A stretch of 64,000 nt of DNA from Methylacidiphilum infernorum V4 (GTDB lineage: Bacteria > Verrucomicrobiota > Verrucomicrobiia > Methylacidiphilales > Methylacidiphilaceae), in assembly GCF_000019665.1 (NCBI RefSeq), contig NC_010794.1:1116001-1180000 (forward strand), in the 5' to 3' direction. Under the pieces are notes generated by a model that saw nothing but the letters and a program-made list of their open reading frames with translations, did no database searches and was not told where the DNA came from. The position numbers were made by a program, and so were the translations under genes. Below are positions 16,839-19,671 of this stretch, piece after piece (within the stretch, counting starts at the first letter, position 1; every line of letters starts with the position of its first letter).

Positions 16839-17618
16839 TTATTTTTTTACCTCTTGTTTCGATTTTTGAAGGGCGGTGGAAGTATTCCGATTTTGGAACC
16901 GACTAAACATAAGACCTGCAAAAAAACCCAGTAATCCTCCAGCTATAATATCTGAAAAATAGTGTCTACCTAGCGCCATTCTAGACCAACAAACAAAAAC
17001 AGCACAGAAAAGTAATAGATAGCCCAGGAGGGGCAAGGAACGCAAAAAACTTGAGGCTGTAGCCATAGAAGTAGCCGCATGACCAGAAGGAAAACCATGA
17101 AACATGGCCGTCCAGTGTATTCCATAAAACCCATCTACAAATGAACCTCCTGGATGTATTCTATGAAAGCTGACAATGGGCGTGGGGATATAACCTAATT
17201 GTTTGAAGGCTTCCTTAACATCGGCTGAAGGACGAGGTCGGCCAAGAACGTCCCGCCCTAAATCCACTAGACAACCGGCAATGAAGGCAGAAAGAAAACA
17301 TCCTATAGCCGCTTCTTTTATTCTCTCTTTTTTAAATAACAATCCAAGCAGATAAATTCCAATAGATAAAGGGACGGTCCCTTGAGGAAAATCCCCCCAG
17401 TAGCTTATTTTTTCAGCTAAAAAATGAAAAAAATCTCCTTCTTTTATTAAAAAAAAACTGTAAAAAGGCATGTCAAATTGAAATGCCAAGCCTACACTCA
17501 ATAGCCAAATTAAGGGTAAAGTCATTCTTGAAGACTTGATTCCCTCTTTGAAATCACCCCAAACACCGAAGAGCAGGCTTTTTGAAAATTCGTAAAGAAA
17601 CACAAACTCATTCTTCAT
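16839..17618 (-). CDS. PAP2-family membrane phosphatase
   Basis: The protein has about 259 residues from the ATG at 17618, which overlaps the end of the upstream gene by 11 bases. A longer frame to 17702 would run back over that gene. The three phosphatase motifs are intact: R-x6-RP in GRDVLGRPRP, PSGH in GFPSGHAAT, and SR-x5-H-x3-D in SRMALGRHYFSD. Several hydrophobic helices surround them. Such enzymes dephosphorylate undecaprenyl pyrophosphate, phosphatidic acid or lipid A-type substrates at the periplasmic face. The particular lipid is not predictable. Confidence 0.8.
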   Translation of the reverse strand: MKNEFVFLYEFSKSLLFGVWGDFKEGIKSSRMTLPLIWLLSVGLAFQFDMPFYSFFLIKEGDFFHFLAEKISYWGDFPQGTVPLSIGIYLLGLLFKKERIKEAAIGCFLSAFIAGCLVDLGRDVLGRPRPSADVKEAFKQLGYIPTPIVSFHRIHPGGSFVDGFYGIHWTAMFHGFPSGHAATSMATASSFLRSLPLLGYLLLFCAVFVCWSRMALGRHYFSDIIAGGLLGFFAGLMFSRFQNRNTSTALQKSKQEVKK

Positions 17619-18822
17619 TTTTACCTTGATCCGAAAGATATTTTTTCCATCCGATCGACATCTCTCTGAGTTTGGCGACAACTTCTCTATAAATTTTTGC
17701 AAACTTTTCGATCTCCTCTTTTGTAGTTGTTATTCCCAAGCTTATCCTCACACTGGATACGGCTCTGTGGTATCCCAGTCCCACGGCTTTAAAAACATGG
17801 GAGACTCTTAAATTTTTCTGGATACAACTCGGTCCACTGGAAATCATAATCCCTTTAAGATCACAGCTTAGAACTTGGGATTCTCCACCTATGAATTCCG
17901 GACTTACATTCAAGTTCTGTATAGACCGGCTAAAGCCTGGTTGAGGTCCATTGAGGGCAATTAAAGGGATGTGGGTTAAAAGGTCGTTCCAGAGTAATTT
18001 TTGGAGATAACTGACTTTTTCTATTTTTTCTTTAAATAGTTGAGAAGTAATTTCTGCAGCTTTTGCCGTAGCGAGAACAGCGGGTAAATTTTCTGAACCT
18101 CCCCAAAAACCAAAATCCCTGTTTAAGCCCGGGATGATTGGCTCTATTTCGAAACCTTTTTTAACACAAAGGATACCCACCCCTTTCGGTCCGTTAAATT
18201 GATTGGGATTGACGACGAGAAGGGAAATAGGAAGTTGTTTTAAATCTATAGGAACCCAACCTGCGGCATACGAACCGTCACAAAAAAAAGCTATTCCTTT
18301 GTTAAAACAGAGATGAGCCACTTCTTGAACGTTTTGTATGGAACCAATTTCGGGGTTAACCCACTGAACGCAACACAGGATAGTTTGAGAAGTAGACAGT
18401 TCCTCGATGGCCTTGGGGTCAACAAATCCCTCTTTATCTACGGGAATATAACTGACGGTAGCTCCTTCGTTTTTAAGCTTCTCAAAAAGAAGTAAGATAG
18501 GTTTTTGCTCTATGGGAGTTGTCAAAATATGCTTGCCTTTCGATGCATTTCTTCTCCAAAAACCTTCTATGCCAAGCACGATAGCTTCCCAACTTCCCCC
18601 TGTAAATACTATCTCCGTTTCTTCACAACCTAGGAAAGCGGAGATACATTCCAAGGCAGATTGCAAAACTTTTTTGGAATAAATTCCTCTCTGGTGAAGA
18701 CTGCTTGGAGAGAAGGGCTCTATTGAATGTTGCTTCAATATTTCCAAGGCTTCCGGAAAAACAGGAGCAGCGGATTGATGATCCAAGTAAATGGTGCTGC
18801 CGACTTCAGCCATTTTGTGCAT
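17608..18822 (-). CDS. NifS/IscS-like protein lacking the PLP lysine
   Basis: This 404-residue protein is collinear with cysteine desulfurases (class V aminotransferases): TIYLDHQSAAPVFPEAL at the start, TGGSWEAI, and a C-terminal SVRISLGITTTKEEIE. Key positions differ. The Schiff-base lysine in the S-x-HK-x2-GPKG motif is Gln208 (NPNQFNGPKG), and the PLP-stacking His is Gln106 (PIEQKP). The cofactor Asp (FFCDGSY) and the sulfur-accepting Cys333 (SSGPSC) remain. It therefore probably cannot work as a normal desulfurase; a scaffold, sulfur-transfer or regulatory role is possible. It is co-transcribed with the PAP2 gene. Confidence 0.7.
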   Translation of the reverse strand: MHKMAEVGSTIYLDHQSAAPVFPEALEILKQHSIEPFSPSSLHQRGIYSKKVLQSALECISAFLGCEETEIVFTGGSWEAIVLGIEGFWRRNASKGKHILTTPIEQKPILLLFEKLKNEGATVSYIPVDKEGFVDPKAIEELSTSQTILCCVQWVNPEIGSIQNVQEVAHLCFNKGIAFFCDGSYAAGWVPIDLKQLPISLLVVNPNQFNGPKGVGILCVKKGFEIEPIIPGLNRDFGFWGGSENLPAVLATAKAAEITSQLFKEKIEKVSYLQKLLWNDLLTHIPLIALNGPQPGFSRSIQNLNVSPEFIGGESQVLSCDLKGIMISSGPSCIQKNLRVSHVFKAVGLGYHRAVSSVRISLGITTTKEEIEKFAKIYREVVAKLREMSIGWKKYLSDQGKNEE

Positions 18823-18870: not shown

Positions 18871-19671
18871 TTAACTTGAAGTATTGTCTAAAGCTAAATA
18901 AGAAATTTTATTTTTTTTTACAGATTTTGTATAAATAGGTCCGAACCAAGTATCCACTAAACAAAGGCCAAAGAATGCTCCAAAGGGAATCGTATAATAA
19001 AAAGCCATGGTCAGGGCGTTTACACCGAGAAGAAAAGTGGAAGCAATTAAATAATCTGTCTTGGCGAGAGAAAAAAGCCTAAAATTTTCAGAATAATTCA
19101 AGGCACAATCAAAAACATTGACCCCGTCAAGCCATCGACAGCAGGCCACCCCACAAAAAGGAATAACAAACCATAAAATAGGAGGAACAAAAAGAGAAAG
19201 AAGAGCTGTCGGCAATCCCAAGAGCTGAATAAAGATATAATAAACGACCCCCATCCATAAGATTGCAGGAAAAATGAGTGTTGTCAAAGCAATCATCAAC
19301 TTCGCCGCCCCTTCCCTGGCATAGTTCCAAAACAACGAAAGATTCCATTCTGGAAGTTGTTGCGGCTTGCCGTTTTTTGCCCTCCGTAAAACCTCAAAAG
19401 TAAATCCAAGGGGAAACCAGAAAGTACAGACATTGATGATGAGGAGTCCTAAAAATGTGCTGGGGAGCTTGCCTTCACCGTAGGAAGAACCTATTTTAGG
19501 AACCAGCGCTAAAAGGAAAGGATTGATAAGGAGAAAACCCCCAATGATGACTTTTATCCACCACCAAGGATCTGAAAAAACCTGGGAAAACCCCTTTTTA
19601 ATGTCTGTAAAAAAGTTGAATCGAAGTTCTTCAGATGTATCAGAAGGGTGAAAAGCTTCTTCATGCGGCAT
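18871..19671 (-). CDS. DUF4013 family membrane protein
   Basis: This is a 266-residue polytopic protein with about six hydrophobic helices and long Phe/Leu/Ile-rich segments. The stretch FEVLRRAKNGKPQQLPEW, followed by a Trp-containing helix and a basic loop, is characteristic of the DUF4013 family. The function of the family is unknown. It is likely to be in the inner membrane. Gene spacing is loose (48 bases to the NifS-like gene), so operon membership is uncertain. Confidence 0.65.
   Translation of the reverse strand: MPHEEAFHPSDTSEELRFNFFTDIKKGFSQVFSDPWWWIKVIIGGFLLINPFLLALVPKIGSSYGEGKLPSTFLGLLIINVCTFWFPLGFTFEVLRRAKNGKPQQLPEWNLSLFWNYAREGAAKLMIALTTLIFPAILWMGVVYYIFIQLLGLPTALLSLFVPPILWFVIPFCGVACCRWLDGVNVFDCALNYSENFRLFSLAKTDYLIASTFLLGVNALTMAFYYTIPFGAFFGLCLVDTWFGPIYTKSVKKNKISYLALDNTSS

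Follow-up and report, generated by a model that had tools for sequence, protein, structure and literature searches.

The window, by which we mean the whole 64,000-nucleotide stretch of the Methylacidiphilum infernorum V4 genome (2,287,145 bases) that was analysed, encodes a protein of the IscS/NifS type in which the lysine that forms the Schiff base with PLP is missing. The gene lies on the minus strand at 17608..18822, is read from an ATG at 18822 down to 17608 and gives a product of 404 amino acids (P0001); the plus strand of the same interval is crowded with stops. Desulfurase chemistry has almost certainly been lost from this protein. Judged by the residues that define the family, it is not a cysteine desulfurase, and it may act like the non-catalytic half of one. 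Our preferred reading, to which we give an even chance, is that it is a PLP-independent IscS derivative which would keep only the function of its Cys loop, as a cluster ligand or a persulfide acceptor, in Fe-S metabolism. It is also not alone, as the same lysine is missing from a large clade of relatives in Verrucomicrobiota.

The first-pass annotation, made from the sequence alone, described the protein as collinear with cysteine desulfurases, and profile searches agree. The class-V aminotransferase model (PF00266) matches residues 11-374 with 149.9 bits against a cut-off of 21.5, and the NifS and IscS models match over the whole length. Yet the latter scores are about half of the equivalog cut-offs and fall far under them (280.7 against 530.75 for TIGR03402; 231 against 643.2 for TIGR02006). 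A structure modeled with AlphaFold2 from a 20-row alignment (pLDDT 85, pTM 0.85) is least certain at the Cys loop, residues 332-338, as is expected of a mobile loop. The best structural matches of this model in the PDB are IscS and NFS1 chains, many of them in complexes with IscU (Z 46-48, about 2 A), and the full-length IscS fold is predicted to be kept.

What sets the protein apart is its cofactor pocket. With E. coli IscS (L200) as the active-site reference, the Schiff-base Lys206 corresponds to Gln208 (codon CAA, 18199..18201, minus strand) and the stacking and acid-base His104 to Gln106 (18505..18507, minus strand), two replacements that had been pointed out at first sight and that hold in the alignment. 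The remodeling goes further. Thr76 of the PLP phosphate loop has become Trp78 (18589..18591, minus strand), Asn155 has become Pro157, Gln183 Tyr185, Ser203 Asn205 and His205 Asn207. These seven positions likewise distinguish the protein from human NFS1, while the fold (Z 47-48, about 2 A), Asp180 and Arg354 of E. coli IscS (here Asp182 and Arg359) and the Cys328 loop are shared with both enzymes. The loop cysteine, which the first-pass annotation had also reported as retained, is Cys333 of SSGPSC (17824..17826, minus strand); every sequence of the 20-row alignment and each of the 80 loci of our genome-collection scan has a cysteine at this position. Arg354 is the substrate carboxylate site; it is lost in the ISC members of the clade, and its retention as Arg359 could mean that a site for a small ligand has been kept.

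Mutants of the E. coli enzyme indicate what such changes cost. Each of the substitutions H104Q, Q183E and K206A abolishes desulfurase activity on its own, and the K206A protein retains some PLP (PMC9978102). All three residues differ in the window protein, in one case by exactly the same substitution (H104Q), so that three independent needs of desulfuration are unmet. A PLP Schiff base would not be possible at the normal site. Would another lysine take over, as the first-pass annotation allowed for? No substitute lysine is conserved; Lys213 of the GPKG motif was considered and rejected, being also present in canonical IscS and replaced by Val in the sister genus g3 and by Gln or Pro in family f8. 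Nor is the glutamine a local accident. Gln208 is found in all five genomes of the genus, encoded by CAA or CAG, and no member of the genus or of the family has lysine at the site; with five genomes in agreement, a local mutation or sequence error is ruled out. All seven replaced pocket residues are identical in the five genus members, among which only 232 of 402 columns (58%) are invariant, and pairwise dN/dS is about 0.05-0.15 where synonymous sites are unsaturated. From these patterns, the pocket is best described as rebuilt and then maintained by purifying selection rather than drifting.

The wider distribution of the change emerged from a residue-unbiased search of 60 relatives. The best matches in the rest of the order, at 33-41% identity, nearly all lack the Schiff-base lysine, and every Lys-less relative among the 60 has the loop cysteine. 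Arginine occupies the site in families f9, f8, f2 and f6 and in genome G005, as it does in further f2 members and in f4; histidine is found in one locus (L034) and glycine (FRGCGG) in genus g3. Only Lys-bearing homologues were read in f3, f5 and G012. In genus g3 (L017, L018, L020, L021, L023 and L024) the stretch that normally holds the PLP lysine reads HFRGCGGPVG, so that lysine has given way to glycine and a new cysteine stands just ahead of the GP motif; the stacking histidine of this genus is a serine. In a maximum-likelihood tree, the 57 rows of the Lys-less clade, window protein included, form one group (bootstrap 100, SH-aLRT 99), outside which fall E. coli IscS, Archaeoglobus fulgidus IscS and the Lys-bearing paralogues that these genomes also encode. 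The window genus groups with other Methylacidiphilaceae and f8 (99/97) on a long branch of 1.23 changes per column, which leaves its exact sister uncertain.

How often each residue occurs had to be read from a different sample, since one pattern of the genome-collection scan required Arg or Gln at the lysine site and its 79 arginines in 80 loci are no estimate of frequency. We therefore rely on an unbiased survey in which 286 genomes of the class were searched with the IscU protein and the adjacent IscS was read. It gave arginine in nearly all cases, histidine in one and lysine in three genomes of family f65 (G285, G421 and G417, with the ISC-operon IscS genes L311, L314 and L323). These three proteins retain other features of the clade, namely His for Asn155, Ala for Gln183 and a replaced Arg354, and are nested deep inside the Arg clade on the tree; the lysine was most simply regained, in what looks like a natural reversal. 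As a control, the NifU-linked NifS found elsewhere in the phylum has lysine in all 26 readable cases. On the tree, the lysine was lost once, at the base of the IscS-like clade of Verrucomicrobiota, and is missing throughout it save for f65. We found no report of a Lys-less IscS from Verrucomicrobia in the literature searched, which is not proof that none exists.

The neighbors of these genes are informative. In f9 the Lys-less gene stands in an operon with IscU, an Rrf2 regulator and Mrp, an ATPase of the ApbC/NBP35 type that carries Fe-S clusters (PF10609 and PF01883), and the IscU is bona fide by its motifs (CGD, FGCGSA and LPPVK-IHCS). IscU lies beside the Lys-less gene in 68 of the 80 genome-collection loci, and Rrf2, IscU, the Lys-less IscS and Mrp are all present within the fetched stretch in 38 of the 80, some loci ending early. 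Families f2, f4 and f6 have no ISC-type IscU and have SUF in most genomes; their Arg-type gene still adjoins Mrp in most of the loci read, which makes Mrp the most widely retained neighbor of the Lys-less gene in the order. The f8 copy is an orphan beside yebC. At one locus (L146, 6352-7359, plus strand) the Lys-less iscS and mrp are separated by an ORF that has CxxCH motifs and resembles a di-haem cytochrome c peroxidase; at several other loci the two genes stand equally far apart.

Genomes that carry the IscU mostly do without SUF. No match to the SufB/SufD core was found in 24 of 25 such genomes, or in 23 of the 24 that are at least 90% complete; in a second set of 30 genomes, which were selected by locus and have no completeness values, SufB/SufD are absent from 21. 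G025, G033, G277, G285 and others, with an estimated completeness of 91-98% and no SufB/SufD match, have a sole IscU-type operon that carries either a Lys-less or a Lys-regained IscS. All 20 genomes tested from the set of 30 also encode a separate NifS that shares 62-100% identity with the G033 protein; the motif was read for 19 of them and has lysine in every case. In SUF-less genomes, then, the Lys-less IscS looks like part of the only ISC/SUF-type system, other scaffolds being possible, and with a separate Lys-bearing NifS present and SufB/SufD absent, the desulfuration of cysteine is probably the work of another protein.

The situation in M. infernorum itself is different in its surroundings. 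The first-pass annotation had recommended looking for a separate, intact iscS or sufS, and the genome has four Lys-bearing homologues, a SufS (L001) as well as L002, L003 and L004. Together with the SufB and SufD that are also encoded, they should make ordinary sulfur mobilization independent of the window protein. An ISC-type IscU was not found in this genome, the only candidate being a weak NifU_N/SufU match that lies beside SufS and is unlinked to the Lys-less gene; Mrp is encoded at position 1278743, away from it. As in the rest of its family (f1), the Lys-less gene adjoins neither IscU nor Mrp. Upstream of it is a DUF4013-like membrane protein gene (18871..19671, minus strand; family named on homologue L058), and downstream a membrane phosphatase gene of the PAP2 family (16839..17618, minus strand). 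The listed ORF of the latter begins upstream at a TTG (17702), and the likely start is the ATG at 17618, which overlaps the stop of the NifS-like gene by 11 bp. This pairing with PAP2, remarked on from the outset, recurs within the family, for the order of the three genes is kept in two genera of Methylacidiphilaceae with overlaps of 4-11 bp into PAP2. The pairing is real, and nothing connects it with sulfur. The DUF4013-like protein has invariant cysteines within PFCxVACCRxLDG(x5)CA, which we considered as a mark of sulfur partnership; that idea is weakened by homologues in other families, where the cysteines are equally conserved and the gene is not linked to a NifS-like gene. A scan for promoters and terminators gave no more signals than shuffled sequence.

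A precedent for an IscS of this kind comes from the archaea. A. fulgidus IscS is described as having Asp for Lys, no desulfurase activity and a cysteine that serves as a ligand of the IscU cluster (PMC7585200). This protein (IscS2; PDB 4eb5 and 4hvk; D199 for Lys) is also the best natural match to the window protein among PDB sequences (E 3.5e-66, 35% identity). Both have lost the Schiff-base lysine, have a replaced Gln183 and keep the loop cysteine; the archaeal protein retains the phosphate Thr, His104 and Ser203, whereas the window protein does not. Like the archaeal IscS-IscU complex, relatives of the window protein pair a Lys-less IscS with IscU in operons, f9 and the wider class among them; unlike the archaeal system, the window protein itself has no IscU encoded with it. 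A. fulgidus IscS branches outside the Verrucomicrobiota clade and a joint clade is not rejected (p-AU 0.635), so that tree and topology test neither show nor reject a single origin. The IscS1 of Methanosarcina acetivorans is also reported to lack the essential lysine, and a mode of action like that of the A. fulgidus protein has been suggested for it (PMC7585200). It is archaeal and encoded with its own IscU1, and its likeness to the window protein is one of description. A further comparison is with the Arg-type IscS of the Rrf2-IscU-IscS-Mrp operons, first described here, which fall in the same clade (100/99) and likewise have lost the lysine and kept the cysteine. However, in these the pocket still has the shape for PLP (Thr, His, Asp, Ser, His) and the linkage to IscU and Mrp persists, whereas the window protein has lost both.

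How might such a protein work? The neighbors of its relatives (IscU, Mrp and Rrf2) point, by analogy, to Fe-S assembly. The first-pass annotation, which thought of a persulfide carrier, a dimer partner or a regulator, had not anticipated this direction, and its interpretation is borne out in part, for the loss of PLP chemistry. Across the clade in general, the Lys-less IscS may dock IscU, and perhaps Mrp, with the loop cysteine acting as a [2Fe-2S] ligand or relaying a persulfide that another protein has loaded onto it. Structures of the A. fulgidus IscS-IscU complex suggest such a mode of action for that Lys-less IscS (PMC7585200). The dimer would serve as a docking and Cys-loop platform from which, in the window protein, Cys333 would swing over to the Fe-S site of a partner. 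There it might ligate the forming cluster through its thiolate, in the way of the A. fulgidus IscS-IscU complex, or it might carry a persulfide loaded by a Lys-bearing desulfurase or from sulfide. In E. coli, the region in contact with IscU includes a C-terminal segment with SP(L/M)W (PMC2854127). In the window protein this segment reads SIGWKKY, which counts against a role of the IscU type; with the pocket rebuilt as well, the partner has probably changed relative to the clade. Candidates in Methylacidiphilum would be Mrp, SufU or the Cys-rich DUF4013 protein of the same operon. There are counterpoints to this proposal. The role is taken over from relatives across a long branch, to an organism where the gene has neither an ISC-type IscU nor Mrp as a neighbor, and neither of its operon partners, DUF4013 and PAP2, is known to be an Fe-S protein. 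We infer that the window protein does not desulfurate cysteine and, from the same comparisons, what it does instead; that Cys333 is used in an Fe-S or sulfur role is a proposition we consider about as probable as its opposite.

Other explanations account for parts of the evidence. The loss of catalytic residues could be the mark of a decaying pseudogene or a sequencing artefact, but the gene is intact in all five genus genomes with the low dN/dS given above and its pocket substitutions are fixed; the data refute this idea, and its probability is close to nil. Serine palmitoyltransferase has a Lys-less subunit that acts as a non-catalytic partner, and the window protein might in the same manner pair with a Lys-bearing NifS of its cell as a heterodimer, tuning or completing the active site of the latter. 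The retained fold and length, the four Lys-bearing homologues in its own genome and the position of Thr243, which one subunit contributes to the other across the dimer interface, kept as Ser/Thr, would all suit such a partner. However, a Lys-bearing NifS adjoins the Lys-less gene in no genome examined, and the ISC-operon relatives have a single IscS gene, which makes heterodimers of this kind unlikely.

Slightly less unlikely is a role at the envelope, in which the protein of Methylacidiphilaceae would have been recruited from Fe-S work to DUF4013 and PAP2, where it could, for example, regulate a membrane-lipid enzyme as a soluble protein or serve that enzyme as a thiol sensor. The conserved three-gene order with its short overlaps, the lost linkage to IscU and Mrp and the remodeled pocket would fit this. 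Against it, the DUF4013 homologue with its cysteines occurs unlinked in other families and the f8 orphan has no DUF4013/PAP2 operon, so that the operon is not needed for the protein to be retained. It could also be asked whether the protein is a PLP or PMP enzyme that manages without the Schiff-base lysine by using another base, as GDP-4-keto-6-deoxymannose 3-dehydratase has His in place of Lys. Asp182 and Arg359 are retained, the phosphate-binding Thr, Ser and His and the stacking His are all still found in the Arg-type relatives, and even K206A IscS still binds some PLP (PMC9978102). In the window protein, though, Trp, Asn and Asn stand at the phosphate contacts and Gln has replaced the stacking His, a change that by itself kills the activity of E. 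coli IscS (PMC9978102), and we regard an enzyme of this sort as very improbable.

The preferred reading, a PLP-independent derivative working through its Cys loop, extends to the phylum as a more tentative proposal, which we hold at somewhat below even confidence. Many Verrucomicrobiota would assemble Fe-S clusters without SUF, through an ISC operon whose sole IscS is Lys-less and would be a Cys-loop platform for IscU and Mrp, the sulfur coming from another enzyme or from sulfide; Methylacidiphilaceae would have a fully PLP-free version with a new partner. The Lys-less IscS of A. fulgidus was long an oddity whose representativeness was doubted, and it now has a monophyletic and widespread bacterial counterpart, with IscU and Mrp as conserved operon partners and SUF mostly absent. 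An essential function of IscS apart from desulfuration thereby becomes testable by genetics and biochemistry, and the natural variants at the lysine site (Arg, Gln, Gly, His and Lys regained) are a ready-made experiment, of which the window protein, with the cofactor pocket itself rebuilt, is the extreme case. If the proposal is true, a bacterial lineage would have divided desulfuration and scaffold docking, normally combined in one protein, between two proteins.
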